A DNA stretch of 62,733 bases from a bacterium (GTDB lineage Bacteria; Bacillota; Clostridia; Lachnospirales; Lachnospiraceae): the NCBI GenBank assembly GCA_030535455.1, contig JAUNJY010000022.1:1-62733 (forward strand). The letters run 5' to 3'. Positions 423-54,717 of the stretch are shown in pieces; position 1 is the first letter of the stretch; every line of letters begins with the position of its first letter. A model generated the notes under the pieces. It made no database searches. It saw only the letters and a program-made list of their open reading frames with translations, and had not been told where the DNA came from. The position numbers and the translations under genes are program-made.

Positions 423-464
423 ACACGGGGTGCCGAACAAACGTTCGGTACCCCGTGTTTTTTT
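423..464 (+). terminator. Intrinsic terminator of the secreted enzyme gene
   Basis: A 16-bp stem (423-438 with 443-458, one G-U pair), loop AAAC and seven T residues at 458-464. The U-tract runs directly into the hairpin repeat starting at 465. Confidence 0.93.
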
Positions 465-533
465 AATGCATAGGAAACTTCTCTTCGAGCAGCCTCCTAT
501 GCATTAAAAAGGCTTTCTAAAAAACGGAAAGCC
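465..533 (+). repeat. Post-terminator hairpin repeat, copy 1 (best conserved)
   Basis: An 11-bp perfect stem (465-475 AATGCATAGGA with 495-505) encloses a 19-nt loop AACTTCTCTTCGAGCAGCC. It starts at the first base after the terminator U-tract. The following A-run (506-510) can extend the stem by pairing with that U-tract. A second hairpin, GGCTTTC (511-517) with GAAAGCC (527-533), follows. The same two-hairpin arrangement recurs at 53509-53577 on the minus strand with a different but still complementary stem. Further single-hairpin relatives lie at 658-683, 10682-10716 and 54646-54687. Confidence 0.8.
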
Positions 534-590
534 AAGATGCACACTCACCTGAAAGGAGAATGTCGCTTGCGCGACCAGGTTCGGCGCGGG

Positions 591-649
591 CAAAGTGTGT
601 GTTCCTTGCAGAGAGTTTATGTGCGAGAGTGTGTGGAACACACACTTTG
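591..649. repeat. 15-bp inverted repeat in the asnB upstream region
   Basis: CAAAGTGTGTGTTCC (591-605) is exactly complementary to GGAACACACACTTTG (635-649), with a 29-nt spacer. The surrounding DNA (about 560-600) is more GC-rich than its neighbourhood. A 16-base half site, GTGGAACACACACTTT, recurs at 13483-13498 downstream of the antiporter terminator, so it belongs to an intergenic repeat. The 418-849 gap as a whole holds a terminator, two copies of the hairpin repeat and this inverted repeat; I see no gene in it. Confidence 0.65.
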
Positions 650-657
650 TTCTCACC

Positions 658-683
658 AGGAAACTTCTCTTCGAGCAGCCTCC
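658..683 (+). repeat. Post-terminator hairpin repeat, copy 2 (stem eroded)
   Basis: The 19-nt loop at 662-680 is identical to copy 1, but only GGA/TCC of the stem is left. It follows the inverted repeat at 591-649 instead of a recognised terminator. Confidence 0.65.
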
Positions 684-849
684 CATTTACTCTGCAACTC
701 CTTATAAAATCTAACGTAAAATACTTAAATTGCTTGTTCAACTCCTGTCCATTTCTTATTATTTAAGACATTTCAAAGAAATGGTAGCAATCATTTTCCC
801 TTATCATACAATAATTCATAAGTTTTTTATGGGAAAGGAAGACCAATTA

Positions 850-3569: not shown

Positions 3570-4487
3570 ATGAATGAGACAATCGTAGAAGTAAAAAATA
3601 TTACAAAATCTTTTAAATCATTTACCGCTCTGCATGATGTATCCTTAACGTTAGAAAATGGAAAGATTTATGGACTGATCGGACAGAATGGTGCCGGCAA
3701 GACAACCCTGATGCGTCTGCTTTGCGGCTTTAGCTACCCTACAAGCGGAACCATCGAACTATTTGGCAAGATAAAGGAAAAAGAATTAGTAGAAGAAAGA
3801 GAACGCATTGGCTGTATTATTGAAAATCCAGGACTTATTCCAAATATGAGTGCCATAGAAAACTTAGAATATCATAGAATTCTTCGAGGCATCCCCGATG
3901 AAGATTGTACCTTAGAGCTATTAGAAACCGTTGGGCTTCCAGATACCAAGAAGAAAACAAAGGACTTCTCCCTTGGCATGAAACAGCGGTTAGGTATTGC
4001 CATCGCTCTTTTAGGAAACCCTGAGTTACTAATCCTAGATGAGCCAATCAATGGGCTTGATCCTGTAGGTGTCGTAGAAATTCGTGAATTAATAAAGCGC
4101 TTATGTAAGGAACGTCATATTACCATCTTGATTTCAAGCCATAATCTCCCTGAGCTTTATCAGACAGCTACTGATTATATCATTCTTCATCAGGGAGAAG
4201 TAAAACAGATCCTGACCCTTGAAGAATTAGAGGACAAATGCAGGCATCACCTTAAAATATCGTGTGACAATACACAAAAGCTGCTGTTAATTCTGGAACA
4301 ACAACTTAAAACAGATAATTTCATAGTCATGCCGGATCAAACGGTTAAGCTGTATGACTACGTGAATGAAAAGGAAAAGGTCGCAAAAGCAATCTTTGAT
4401 AATGACATGTACCCATTAAACTTTTCCTTAGAAGGGGACACCTTGGAAAACTACTTTATCTCTGTTGTTGGGAGGAATGAAGAATGA
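3570..4487 (+). CDS. ABC transporter ATPase, BcrA/lantibiotic-immunity type
   Basis: A 305-residue nucleotide-binding subunit. Walker A is GQNGAGKTT (38-46), the signature is FSLGMKQR, Walker B is LLILDEPINGLD and the switch histidine is in SSHNLPE. The C-terminal extension of about 90 residues is typical of the bacitracin/lantibiotic self-protection group (DrrA-like). The stop overlaps the permease start by 4 bp (ATGA), so the two are translationally coupled. AAAGGAGGAAG precedes the start. The substrate cannot be told from sequence. Confidence 0.9.
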   Translation: MNETIVEVKNITKSFKSFTALHDVSLTLENGKIYGLIGQNGAGKTTLMRLLCGFSYPTSGTIELFGKIKEKELVEERERIGCIIENPGLIPNMSAIENLEYHRILRGIPDEDCTLELLETVGLPDTKKKTKDFSLGMKQRLGIAIALLGNPELLILDEPINGLDPVGVVEIRELIKRLCKERHITILISSHNLPELYQTATDYIILHQGEVKQILTLEELEDKCRHHLKISCDNTQKLLLILEQQLKTDNFIVMPDQTVKLYDYVNEKEKVAKAIFDNDMYPLNFSLEGDTLENYFISVVGRNEE

Positions 4488-5287
4488 ATATCATAAAATC
4501 AGATTGTTATCAGTTAGTACGTAGTAAAATGTTTTGGATAATCTTTGTGTTTAGCTGTTTATGTGGAATAAGCATTACTCTTATTTCTCATGGCCTGGCA
4601 GCAGGAACACTGGGCGCAGAGTTTATAGGAACTGCCTCCGGCCTTATGGATAATATGGTCATTTCCATTATAGGACCAATTCTAATCGCCACTTACCTAT
4701 GTAATGACTTTTCTAATAAGACGATCCACTCCGCTATTTTATATGGACATGGAAGAAGAGTTATCGTATGGGCAAAAGTTGTTCCTTGCACGATCATGAT
4801 GTTTCTTTTATTGCTTCCTTATGTAATCAGTACTTTGATTGGATTTCTTTCCGGAAATAGTTTTAGCCTGGAATTTGCCAATGCCATAGACTCATCCTAT
4901 ATGATGATCCTGGCAAAACAAGGATCGTATGCCAGAGACTTTAATACCATTGCCAAACTAGTCTTAATCTTATTTGTACTGGCACTAATGTACCTGTCAA
5001 GAATAAGCCTGATTTTCCTTTTAAGCTATCTGATTCGTAAACCAATTGCAGTTATCGGCATCGGTGTAATCTTAGAAATGGGCTTAAGCATATTAGCAGG
5101 TGTAACCGCCAAATCAGAAGTGATTAATTCCATCGTTTCTTCGACACCATTTATCGGAATGAGAGATAACATTACTTTATCAGCCAGCGTCCCTGATTTA
5201 CTAAAGACTGCGGCAACAAGCATAGTATTCCTAATAATAATCATCAATATTTCAACCGCGCTTTTTAATAAAGCAGAAGTAAAATAA
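4484..5287 (+). CDS. ABC transporter permease, ABC-2/BcrB type
   Basis: A 267-residue integral membrane protein with about six hydrophobic segments, including 16-38, 61-81, 103-127, 162-184, 192-212 and 237-260. It overlaps the ATPase gene by 4 bp and is its membrane partner. The N-terminal amphipathic stretch before the first segment and the N-D-F-S-N-K-T-I motif after segment 2 are typical of ABC-2 permeases. It probably exports or expels a membrane-active peptide; the substrate is unknown. Confidence 0.85.
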   Translation: MNIIKSDCYQLVRSKMFWIIFVFSCLCGISITLISHGLAAGTLGAEFIGTASGLMDNMVISIIGPILIATYLCNDFSNKTIHSAILYGHGRRVIVWAKVVPCTIMMFLLLLPYVISTLIGFLSGNSFSLEFANAIDSSYMMILAKQGSYARDFNTIAKLVLILFVLALMYLSRISLIFLLSYLIRKPIAVIGIGVILEMGLSILAGVTAKSEVINSIVSSTPFIGMRDNITLSASVPDLLKTAATSIVFLIIIINISTALFNKAEVK

Positions 5288-6268: not shown

Positions 6269-6463
6269 ATGTGTTGTAACAATTCTTGGTATTCTTGGTC
6301 CGGTTGTGGAAACAACTGGGGTTTCTATAATAATAGCTGTAGCTGGAACAACGGCTGCAATAGCTGCTGGGGAAGCGGCTGGGGCTGGAATAATGGCTGT
6401 GGCTGGAACAATGGCTGTAATAACTGGGGTTGCGGCTGGAATAATGGCTGTGGCTGGTTCTAA
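6269..6463 (+). CDS. Cys/Trp/Gly/Asn-rich 64-residue peptide of unknown function
   Basis: The peptide contains 10 Cys, 11 Trp, 14 Gly and 17 Asn among 64 residues, with three copies of GWNNGC in the second half. This frame is preferred to the overlapping frames because the repeats differ at third positions (AAT/AAC) while the residues stay the same, and Trp codons rarely recur by chance. It starts MCC with no signal peptide or membrane segment. The ribosome binding site is weak. A terminator lies 50 bp downstream, so it looks monocistronic. It could be a spore-coat-like structural peptide, a metal-binding peptide or a modified-peptide precursor, but no modifying enzyme lies nearby. I do not recognise the family. 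Confidence 0.6.
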   Translation: MCCNNSWYSWSGCGNNWGFYNNSCSWNNGCNSCWGSGWGWNNGCGWNNGCNNWGCGWNNGCGWF

Positions 6464-6513
6464 ATTTCTCAAATTCCACATTATGAAAACAAAATATTGA
6501 TTGCTTTACTAAC

Positions 6514-6549
6514 AAAAGGTCATTCATATGGTATGTGGATGGCCTTTTT
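6514..6549 (+). terminator. Terminator after the Cys/Trp-rich peptide gene
   Basis: AAAAGGTCAT (514-523 of this kilobase) pairs with ATGGCCTTTTT (6539-6549) around a 15-nt loop, ending in five T residues. Confidence 0.75.
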
Positions 6550-6630
6550 CGTTATTTTAACACGATACATAAATTTATAAAAAGTCAGCATACTAATCAG
6601 GTACGAAAAAATAAGAAAGTGTGGTAATAT

Positions 6631-10681: not shown

Positions 10682-10716
10682 GTCTAGAAGGTTGACCAAA
10701 GAGGAGTATCCTAGAC
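10682..10716 (-). repeat. Post-terminator hairpin repeat, copy 3 (divergent)
   Basis: Read on the minus strand, GTCTAGGA and TTCTAGAC (one mismatch) enclose a 19-nt loop, TACTCCTCTTTGGTCAACC, which matches copy 1 at 13 of 19 positions. It lies three bases behind the U-tract of the lexA terminator. The stem sequence is unrelated to copy 1 yet still pairs. Confidence 0.6.
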
Positions 10717-10719
10717 ATG

Positions 10720-10765
10720 AAAAAAGCCTTAATTATGTATCTTTTTACATAATTAAGGCTTTTTT
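10720..10765 (-). terminator. Terminator of lexA (also reads as a terminator on the plus strand)
   Basis: A 14-bp perfect stem, GCCTTAATTATGTA (10726-10739) with 10746-10759, with A/T runs on both sides extending it. It works in either direction; lexA ends 4 bp away. Confidence 0.92.
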
Positions 10766-13423: not shown

Positions 13424-13457
13424 AGCGTTTTGCCACTAGGCAATAACGCTTTTTTTA
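13424..13457 (+). terminator. Terminator after the antiporter gene
   Basis: AGCGTTTTGCC (13424-13434) pairs with 13439-13450 (one bulged T) around a 4-nt loop, followed by seven T residues. The repeat half-site GTGGAACACACACTTT follows at 13483. Confidence 0.9.
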
Positions 13458-13571
13458 ATAGGTTGATAAGGTACGAGTTTGGGTGGAACACACACTTTTT
13501 ATTTAGCATATAGTGGCTATTTATGTTATAATAACTTAGTTTTATAAATTAATATCGATAAGGAGAGAACT

Positions 13572-41902: not shown

Positions 41903-42510
41903 AAAACACCTGCTATGCGGGTGATGGGAATTGCTTTAGCCTTCAGTAAAAAAACCTCCCGTGTTACAATAATGATGGTTCGCCAACCACATTAAAAACA
42001 AGGAGGTTGTCTCAATGGACATAAATAGTCTATCACACACTAAATGGAATTGTAAGTATTATATAGTTTTTGCACCTAAATTTAGAAGAAAAGTAATATA
42101 TGGAGAACTGTATAAAGATATAGCTAATATATTAAGTACCTTATGTAAACGAAAAGGAGTTCATATAGTAGAAGCAGAGATGTGCCCTGATTATGTTCAT
42201 ATGGTAGTGGAAATACCACCAAGCCTAAGTGTATCAAACTTTGTTGGATATTTAAAAGAGAAAAGTACACTGATGATATTTGAAAGACATGCCAGTTTGA
42301 AATATAAATATGGAAATAGACATTTTTGGTGTAGAGGATTTTATGTAGATACTGTAGGAAAGAATGCAAAAAAGATAAGCCCTTAGGGCTTAGTAGGAAA
42401 TGATGTTGCGGCTGGCGAACTGTTCGATGAGTCTTTAGACTCCAGTGCCGGTAAAAGGCCCTTATAGGGCTAGAACAAGCCACCGGCTAAGCCGGTGGTT
42501 CTGACTATGG
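41903..42510 (+). mobile_element. IS200/IS605-family insertion sequence, inactive
   Basis: The left end carries hairpin CACCTGC-TAT-GCGGGTG (41907-41923); the right end carries CCACCGGCT-A-AGCCGGTGG (42481-42499) followed by TTCTGAC. These subterminal palindromes are the transposase recognition hairpins of the family, which has no inverted terminal repeats and makes no target duplication. AACCTCC (41953-41959) can pair with the Shine-Dalgarno GGAGGTT (42002-42008), the known translation block of IS200. Outer limits are approximate. Confidence 0.88.
42015..42386 (+). pseudogene. tnpA: IS200-type Y1 transposase, catalytically broken and truncated
   Basis: A 123-residue HUH-type single-strand transposase starting MDINSLSHTKWNCKYYIVF. 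The metal-binding HUH motif reads YVH in CPDYVHMVVEI instead of H-V-H (a TAT where CAT is expected). The catalytic Tyr is present in FYVDTVGKN, but the protein then stops at KKISP, about 25-30 residues short of normal (about 150). Both defects should abolish activity; mobilisation in trans by another copy would still be possible. Confidence 0.88.
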
Positions 42511-52562: not shown

Positions 52563-53504
52563 TTAATGTAAAAAGTCTAAAATACCAGACACGATTCCAC
52601 CATAATACCTAGGTACCACACTTTTCTCTGCCATAATAACCCCCACCAGTTTTTCTTGTGGAAATACGATTATCTGGCTTCCATTACGATTACACACTCC
52701 ATATCCGTATGGATACAGACGTGTCTGATAACCAAAATCCCGATTAGGCTTACTTGGCGTTATCATATCCCTTATAAAGCCTACATTTATAATCTTACGG
52801 TTCTCCCACATTCCATTCTGTAAGACCAGCTGCCCCAACTTTGCGATGTCACGCACATTCAGTAGCATCTCTTGATCATCTTTTGAACAAGAAGCATCTA
52901 TATTTAACGGTGCTAATAACACATCATTACAAAACTCCCTCAACGAATAGCCTAAGACGTTCTCTAACAGACAGCATAGTATTATGATATCAACTTTCTT
53001 ATATTTATAATGAAGGCCCGGTACCTCTGCCAATGGCAGCTTTATAATCTGTGAAATTGCTTCGTCACTTAAATTACAGATTGGATCCTTTGATATAATC
53101 TTTGTCATATCATCCCCATACTCAATTCCCGAACTCATTGTTAACAAATGTTTTACCTTAATGCGATGGTACAACGTAAAGTGCTGGCGACGAAACTCCG
53201 GTAAATGATCGCTAATAGATACTTCCACGCTCCTAAGCACACGTCTGTCAATTGCTGCCCCCACCAATAAAGCTACAATAAAATAAGAAATTTCTTCGAG
53301 AGGGTATCGACTAGAAGCATTTCCCCCATTATAGTAACGTTCCGCCAGCCTCTCTCCATCTCTTAAAATCAGTACCCCTTTGATTTTATCATAATCAGAC
53401 TGCTTCACCTGCTGATCAATCCATCGATTTAATTTAAGTTCATCCAGAATATAATCAATCAATTTTTCTTTCACTTCCCTCCCTGAATAAAGTGTCTTCG
53501 ACAC
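52563..53504 (-). CDS. Beta-lactamase/PBP-fold protein with lost catalytic residues
   Basis: 313 residues of the class-C beta-lactamase-like (serine hydrolase) fold: HRIKVKHLLTMSSGIEYGDD, LGYSLREFCNDVLLAPLNI and YPYGYGVCNRNG are in the right order and spacing. The position where relatives have S-x-x-K before SALVGIAID reads EEISYFIVALLVGAAID, with no Ser-x-x-Lys, and the Y-x-N motif reads YKYKKVD. It is therefore probably a non-catalytic binding or sensing protein. No signal peptide is seen, so it may be cytoplasmic. Confidence 0.8.
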   Translation of the reverse strand: MSKTLYSGREVKEKLIDYILDELKLNRWIDQQVKQSDYDKIKGVLILRDGERLAERYYNGGNASSRYPLEEISYFIVALLVGAAIDRRVLRSVEVSISDHLPEFRRQHFTLYHRIKVKHLLTMSSGIEYGDDMTKIISKDPICNLSDEAISQIIKLPLAEVPGLHYKYKKVDIIILCCLLENVLGYSLREFCNDVLLAPLNIDASCSKDDQEMLLNVRDIAKLGQLVLQNGMWENRKIINVGFIRDMITPSKPNRDFGYQTRLYPYGYGVCNRNGSQIIVFPQEKLVGVIMAEKSVVPRYYGGIVSGILDFLH

Positions 53505-53508
53505 TCAT

Positions 53509-53577
53509 GGCTTTCTGGTTTTTAGAAAGCCTTTTTAATAGATAGGAGGTTTCTCGAAGAGAAGTTTCCTATCTATT
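53509..53577 (-). repeat. Post-terminator hairpin repeat, copy 4 (full length)
   Basis: On the minus strand an 11-bp perfect stem (AATAGATAGGA, 53577-53567, with 53547-53537) encloses the 19-nt loop AACTTCTCTTCGAGAAACC. It begins at the base after the HIT-gene terminator U-tract. The second hairpin GGCTTTC/GAAAGCC (53509-53531) is present, as in copy 1. Stem positions 4-5 differ from copy 1 on both arms, keeping the pairing. Confidence 0.8.
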
Positions 53578-53624
53578 AAAAAAAGCTAACGAAATACATC
53601 TTATTATGTATCTCATTAGCTTTT
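53578..53624 (-). terminator. Terminator of the HIT-family gene
   Basis: AAAAGCTAA (53581-53589) pairs with 53616-53624, with an inner ATACAT/ATGTAT helix; seven T residues on the minus strand (53584-53578). Confidence 0.9.
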
Positions 53625-54572: not shown

Positions 54573-54645
54573 CTTTCCACAACATGGTAATTCTACACCT
54601 ATTGATTTTGAATGTCAATGCAGAAGAAAGTGTCTCCTAAGATGT

Positions 54646-54687
54646 AATTTATAGGAGGCTACTCAAAGAGGAGATTTTTTATGTATT
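54646..54687 (-). repeat. Post-terminator hairpin repeat, copy 5 (stem eroded)
   Basis: On the minus strand the loop ATCTCCTCTTTGAGTAGCC (54675-54657) matches copy 1 at 15 of 19 positions. The 3' arm TCCTATAAATT remains but the 5' arm has decayed to AATACATAAAA. It begins directly after the rluD terminator U-tract. Confidence 0.6.
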
Positions 54688-54717
54688 AAAAAAGGCCACT
54701 GTAAATTCAGTGACCTT
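54688..54717 (-). terminator. Terminator of the rluD-led operon
   Basis: AAGG-c-CACTG (54692-54701 region) pairs with CAGTG-a-CCTT (to 54717), one internal mismatch; six T residues on the minus strand. Confidence 0.78.

Follow-up and report, generated by a model that had tools for sequence, protein, structure and literature searches.

A composite hairpin element situated behind intrinsic terminators in Lachnospiraceae, probably a non-autonomous mobile element

The window analyzed in this study is a whole contig of 62,733 nucleotides (JAUNJY010000022.1, assembly GCA_030535455.1) from a member of the Lachnospiraceae. It carries a hairpin repeat that starts at the T-tracts of intrinsic terminators, which raises the question of what this repeat is and how it came to lie there. 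In an earlier note on this DNA it had been described as a hairpin with a fixed 19-nt loop, present in five copies. All five were read at the places and on the strands reported, but the set was incomplete, as a sixth, internally deleted copy was found at 13450–13503. Moreover, the hairpin makes up just the 5′ third of a composite element of 100–195 bp. The features identified in the window are listed below (G000 denotes the window's genome; G001, G002 and G003 are congeners; R1 is a covariance model).

426–457, +: host terminator hairpin ahead of element 1 (13-bp hairpin fold; in G001 kept before T6, without the element)
458–652, +: element 1, full length, 195 bp, from T-tract to TTTGTTC (R1 match at 458–588, 150.1 bits)
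458–464, +: T-tract of element 1, common to the host terminator and the H1 stem
465–505, +: H1 palindrome of element 1, with 11-bp arms flanking AACTTCTCTTCGAGCAGCC (direct reading, fold and covariation)
506–510, +: A-run of element 1, which prolongs the H1 stem by pairing with the T-tract (fold)
511–533, +: H2 hairpin of element 1; together with the A-run, a terminator on the minus strand (fold and covariation)
539–587, +: H3 of element 1, a bulged stem with conserved loops ACTC, AGGA and TTCG (covariation)
589–652, +: 3′ module of element 1, with its own terminator-like hairpin and TTTGTTC at its end (fold; same position in relatives)
653–683, +: copy 2, an H1 remnant nested 3′ of element 1 (read directly)
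10682–10725, −: copy 3, decayed H1 and T-tract (in G001, another decayed element at the same U-tract)
13450–13503, +: copy 6, T-tract and AATAGG fused to the 3′ terminal hairpin, the middle being lost (found via the 3′ module)
53485–53584, −: copy 4, an element of 100 bp with H1, H2 and the terminal hairpin GTGTCGAAGACAC-TTTATTC, H3 being lost (empty in G001)
54645–54693, −: copy 5, decayed H1 and T-tract (absent in G001)

When up to 3 mismatches are allowed, the loop core CTTCTCTTCGAGCAGCC occurs 127 times in the 4.35-Mb genome, compared with 3 times for the reversed pattern, and the hairpin repeat is therefore not a product of chance. Several details noticed earlier were borne out: copies 1 and 4 have 11-bp arms (AATGCATAGGA/TCCTATGCATT and AATAGATAGGA/TCCTATCTATT, respectively) differing at positions 4–5 on both sides, the other stem of copy 3 still pairs over about 6 bp, the A-run of copy 1 prolongs the H1 stem through the T-tract when folded, and copies 1, 3, 4 and 5 start at, or three bases past, the T-runs of different hairpins. 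The start of copy 2 lies 6 bases past the 3′ end of element 1 (652). As regards the decayed copies, a DNA profile built from 58 seeds gave E = 0.017 for copy 3 and missed copy 6. The 19-nt loop is itself self-complementary for the most part (CTTCTC-TTC-GAGAAG), and other tips, e.g. GTTC-TCT-GAAC, mostly take its place in the congener G003. The tip is thus lineage-specific, and the view that a hairpin with a fixed loop is the conserved unit, or the whole element, was rejected.

The full unit consists, in order, of the T-tract of a host terminator, H1, H2, H3, and the element's own terminator hairpin with a TTTGTTC or TTTTTTA end. Since H2 and the A-run behind it have the form of a minus-strand terminator, H1 is placed between two facing terminators. 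The 3′ module (window 589–652) can fold in two ways, as a short, local terminator hairpin or as a long stem (AAAGTGTGTGTTC..GAACACACACTTT), the latter being the minimum-energy fold in copy 1. These alternative folds are attenuator-like, and both halves change together in relatives.

The limits of the element were defined using subfamily copies (12 from G003 and 17 from G000), in which most columns between the left T-tract and the right T6 (TTTTTTA or TTTKTTC) are at least 90% identical. Similarity ends sharply on both sides and the flanks are unrelated: estimated roughly and without gaps, mean pairwise identity is 0.77 (G003) and 0.85 (G000) inside the element versus 0.27–0.29 in the flanks. 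The subfamily consensus starts with TTTTTTTAATTGATAGG and finishes with GCCAAACTCTTTTTTA, and no terminal inverted repeats beyond T/A were found in it. The base after T6 is the same on both sides in one locus (L168) and differs in three (L166, L170, L174); with so inconsistent a repetition of this base, no target-site duplication beyond T could be shown, and the exact junction is undecidable because T-tracts are present at both element ends. Many copies are truncated, and others form tandem arrays in which a copy lies within the T-tract of the preceding one, with a period of approximately 150 bp in G003 and 183–188 bp in G000.

It is worth mentioning that contigs C61, C67, C96, C123, C190 and C208 of G001 start inside or at H1, i.e. 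the repeat breaks the draft assembly. A second dispersed repeat was also observed in G000, G001 and G003 (L018:1–120, L114:397–621, L071 near 4479–4612, and L132), matching dozens of times in G001 and G003. The terminator element apparently lies within the T-tract that ends this second repeat in L029 and L132.

The association with terminators was examined in the window and in stretches fetched around matches and orthologous sites (76 from G000, 40 from G001, 35 from G003 and 5 from G002), in which the DNA profile gave 198 non-redundant matches (117 in G000, 46 in G001, 34 in G003 and 1 in G002). After 15 matches with no 5′ end or no 50 nt upstream had been left out, 183 copies from the four congeneric genomes were scored, of which 166 have a run of at least 4 T at their start. 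A strong hairpin (one hairpin with a folding energy of −8 kcal/mol or lower, whose end is no more than 3 nt from the T-run) is situated directly upstream of 138 of these 166 copies, as against 38 of 500 control T-runs sampled from the 2346 runs of at least 5 T in the same stretches (Fisher p = 2e-77); the remaining 28 lack one. The model itself includes part of the T-run, but the upstream hairpin lies outside it, which makes the hairpin test independent. Among the 17 copies without a T4 run, 13 begin at a TTGTT-type tract, many of these tracts being the end of a neighbouring element. The same placement was seen beyond the genus: at 28 loci from 28 other genera, only L279 is without a T4 run, and the hairpin is present in 26 of the 27 that were scored, compared with 26 of 268 controls. 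Most of these loci also lead into their own terminator-like hairpin, the stems of which differ yet pair. The insertion site is thus directly behind an intrinsic terminator, in one orientation.

Comparison of orthologous loci, as proposed in the earlier note, was performed with G001, which is colinear with the window at 73–86% identity and lacks copies 1, 2, 4 and 5. Window positions 463–702 (copies 1 and 2) and 53484–53577 (copy 4) are missing from the G001 alignment, and in both cases the terminator and the T-run are kept. Copy 4 represents the sole clean empty site, at which G001 still has approximately 14–24 unaligned bases; a second-species check with L018 gave no further one. Copy 5 is absent (the corresponding G001 stretch gave no profile match) and its terminator has diverged. 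Because the intergenic DNA has diverged, a loss in G001 in place of a gain in G000 is conceivable at copies 1/2 and 5. In turn, G001 carries a copy that the window lacks (C17:19657–19849, at the site of window positions 6456–6589). At some orthologous sites two species carry different elements (L032/L127, L126/L173, and copy 3, where a different, decayed element occupies the same T-tract in G001), and such sites could be favoured as targets or could hold old insertions that were overwritten in situ.

The range of the element was analyzed with R1, which gave matches in 108 of 299 genomes (107 of 298 genera) of Lachnospiraceae when up to 11 candidates per genome were scored; the best E value exceeded 1e-6 in 19 of these 108, and the reading by eye covered the 28 best loci outside the genus. 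In a scan of 391 genomes of the class (up to 8 candidates each), 18 matched, i.e. 6 of the family, all but one of them with more than 66 bits in one or more places, and 12 of other families, with 33–40 bits; no R1 hit above 60 bits was obtained in other families among the genomes scanned. Rough whole-genome counts, for which 150 candidates were scored per genome and which may include antisense matches to the palindrome, were 149 for G000, 129 for G001, 16 for G002 and 61 for G003; the 10 matches of G239 possibly include antisense ones too. R1 also matches Anaerostipes hominis (48.0 bits) and a plasmid of Roseburia sp. 831b (50.4 bits; annotated Lachnospiraceae). The asparagine-synthase gene of the window likewise points to this family: its best hit is at 90%, and the named hits that follow include Anaerostipes, Mobilitalea and Hungatella. 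Phage records contain no match to the window copy. For a copy from a distant genus (L271), 13 metagenomic phage records were matched in part, each over less than 80%, and so was one plasmid, the Roseburia plasmid confirmed by R1. A viral origin suggested by the loop pattern was discarded, as the three IMG/VR hits and the G008 hit are without T-tract or H1 arms and are coding-like. A phylum-wide pattern (ATAGGAAA-N3..30-TTTCCTAT) proved too insensitive: it was found in 35 of 398 genomes, near the control, and misses the window genome's own elements.

Six loci (L355–L360) were viewed among the 12 genomes from other families of the class, and were not counted as element copies. They contain H1-like palindromes (TTTTT-NNNN-ATAGGAAA..TTTCCTAT-NNNN-AAAAA) between T- and A-runs, several with another GC-rich hairpin behind; L356 looks like a more complete relative, whereas in the others the palindrome is mostly followed by different sequence. 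Perhaps these palindromes represent sister element families.

We consider it quite probable that the repeat is a non-coding, non-autonomous mobile element of approximately 100–195 bp, which resembles MITEs without having classical inverted ends and uses terminators as its target. The basis for this reading is the composite anatomy, the covarying structure, the placement in one orientation, the multi-copy spread, the absence at orthologous sites in a relative, and the nesting. Both the spread and the terminator target, and with them the earlier suggestion of a mobile palindrome targeting terminators, are well supported by the absences in G001, the near-identical copies with unrelated flanks, the nesting and the terminator association; we infer that the spread occurred by transposition through a trans-acting enzyme, and the mechanism set out below is a proposal.

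A covariance-model scan, also put forward in the earlier note, gave hits that associate with terminators and stems that show compensatory changes, so that neither of the two outcomes named there as refuting was seen. In alignment A1 (67 sequences, mostly less than 93% identical to one another), both partners changed in 31 of 43 pairs, compared with a shuffled mean of 19.7 (0 of 500 shuffles as high), and 88.1% of cells pair, a value that falls to 36–49% for structures slid by 1–3 columns. Alignment A3 (28 genera), made with MAFFT and not fitted to the structure, gave 21 of 32 pairs changed on both sides versus 10.1 after shuffling (again 0 of 500 as high), with 90.3% of cells pairing versus 37–58% for slid structures. 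The signal is carried by H1 and by the middle and inner stems of H3. The inner stem pairs in just 68.6% of A3 cells, partly because of differing gap placement; the outer GCGC stem of H3 is nearly invariant among the genera and thus little informative, and H2, degenerate beyond the genus, was left out of the cross-genus count. G-U pairs are not more frequent than A-C mismatches (94 versus 126 cells in A1, and 15 versus 28 in the 28 genera), and there is therefore no sign of a selected plus-strand RNA in particular; the selected form may be DNA hairpins or minus-strand RNA. No Rfam 15 match at the gathering score was obtained in the window, nor over the element in 8 loci of relatives, in which only a cobalamin riboswitch and a tRNA, both outside the element, were matched. 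The riboswitch (L148:1177–1385) lies upstream of a G003 copy.

These data bear on two alternative readings. One is that the repeat is an RNA element maintained by the host (a backup or two-way terminator, a 3′-end stabilizer or an attenuator), selected at gene ends and dispersed only secondarily. The strong covariation over 28 genera, the conserved loops, the fold of the copy-1 stretch (z = −9.55, with the host terminator hairpin included), the terminal hairpins that pair despite their different sequences, and the choice of copy 1's 3′ module between long stem and local terminator hairpin are all in agreement with it; we nevertheless regard it as unlikely, given the G-U and A-C counts, which also disfavour the RNA element of the earlier note, the near-identical copies behind unrelated genes, the variation of sites between congeners and the many truncated copies. 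The other, which is compatible with a mobile element and to which we attach some, though clearly the lesser, weight, ascribes the covariation of H1 not to selection but to template switching in a long palindrome, one arm being copied from the other. Odd T-tract bases are indeed sometimes mirrored in the opposite arm (L052, L075, L012, L065, L061). Against this stand the three innermost tract positions, at which 8 left and 15 right one-sided differences were counted versus 8 mirrored ones (unpaired double differences not being split by position), and the short asymmetric H3 stems, which covary as well.

Two further alternatives concern the mover. Y1 transposases (PF01797), reverse transcriptases (RVT_1) and group II introns (RF00029) were sought in 11 element-bearing and 7 other genomes. 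None can be the universal mover, since each is missing somewhere: among element-bearing genomes, PF01797 had no match in G003, G239 and G142, RVT_1 had none in G000 and G239, and RF00029 had none in G000, G001, G239 and G249, so that all three went unmatched in G239. These absences are not proof, as most of the searched genomes are drafts, although G003 is complete. The element was found near only 1 of 53 Y1 or reverse transcriptase loci, and weakly (R1, 25.5 bits). According to PMC8919778, group IIC (bacterial-C) introns insert directly behind intrinsic terminators, and a repeat mobilized by, or derived from, such an intron or its reverse transcriptase would have the target and orientation observed here; its antisense RNA would end in an A-run able to pair with the target T-tract. 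Group IIC introns consist, however, of a catalytic intron RNA and a reverse transcriptase. The element has neither, Rfam gave no match to an intron or group II catalytic core over it, and several element-rich genomes are without any group II match, which makes this origin improbable. Similarly, it seems doubtful that the repeat is REP/RAYT-like or derived from IS200/IS605 and owes its movement to a Y1 (HUH) transposase that acts on hairpins in single-stranded form. The hairpins near both ends, the strict orientation, the lack of visible inverted terminal repeats, the T-tract target adjoining a hairpin, and the Y1_Tnp gene of the window would fit; the lack of PF01797 matches in the three element-bearing genomes and the single weak proximity tell against it, Y1 being the only HUH type tested. 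The Y1 gene in question (42015–42386, plus strand; IS200-like, PF01797, 113.6 bits) adjoins none of the six copies. In the fetched stretches no mobility gene or autonomous partner recurs beside copies; the genes recurring there, judged by Pfam analysis of six proteins, encode (i) ABC transporters and (ii) chemotaxis receptors (three proteins of each).

The element was also compared with known repeats. REP sequences are short intergenic palindromes amplified in trans by RAYT. The element is unlike this system in that no Y1 transposase was detected in three genomes bearing it, one of them complete (REP/RAYT are named in PMC8040213 and PMC10969869). It shares with MITEs its short length (195 bp in copy 1), its non-coding nature and its dispersed, multi-copy state (198 matches), but not terminal inverted repeats. 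As described in PMC3049150, SPRITE, a terminator-like hairpin repeat of Streptococcus pneumoniae and S. mitis, is also a short dispersed repeat with a terminator-like duplex, a T-rich tract and AAAA/TTTT ends, enriched behind genes and clustered with other repeats, and for it no empty site or duplication was resolved. By that description, however, SPRITE is itself the terminator, whereas the present element is a multi-helix unit behind the T-tract of another hairpin, found family-wide in another class. The BOX elements of S. pneumoniae are likewise modular, strongly folded, non-coding and multi-copy, with a similar size range, but according to the same source they are bounded by terminal inverted repeats, show target-site duplications and are not reported to target terminators only; neither such repeats nor a duplication were found for the element. 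No description of such an element was found in the literature searched, the coverage of which excluded subscription journals, and the family is real, widespread and apparently undescribed.

How, then, might a non-autonomous mobile element come to lie behind terminators? It is conceivable, though we hold it with less than even confidence, that the enzyme recognizes a hairpin followed by a T-tract, i.e. the element's own right end. A host terminator would mimic this end and serve as the target; as the right end is itself a terminator, every host terminator would be a landing site. Such recognition would explain the single orientation, the T-tract at both ends and the tandem arrays in the T-tract of the preceding copy. 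For the host, the result would be extra terminators on both strands, and insertions behind genes would be tolerated. In view of the terminator-like hairpin at the 3′ end, second-chance termination is a likely, putative by-product. More speculatively, these may be family-wide terminator parasites, with an undescribed machinery that reads structure (hairpin and T-tract) and not sequence, to which the pairing of T-tract and A-run in H1, on single-stranded DNA or antisense RNA, would contribute as a recognition feature.

Terminators are a harmless landing place that, to our knowledge, is well known to be exploited only by group IIC introns. A gene-free element exploiting them in more than 100 genera would account for the additional and the two-way terminators of these genomes and would point to a structure-specific mobilizing activity not yet described. 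It would also add a conserved structured family missing from Rfam, and would be a warning for assemblers and 3′-end mappers, as many G001 contigs break inside H1. Since element-rich gut anaerobes can be cultured, the element is directly testable.

Another multi-copy palindrome, ATAGGAAATTATCCACAACCCATAATTTCCTAT, was detected in other Bacillota families (G779, G810 and G815; e.g. L381, L382 and L386); its core presumably resembles a DnaA box.
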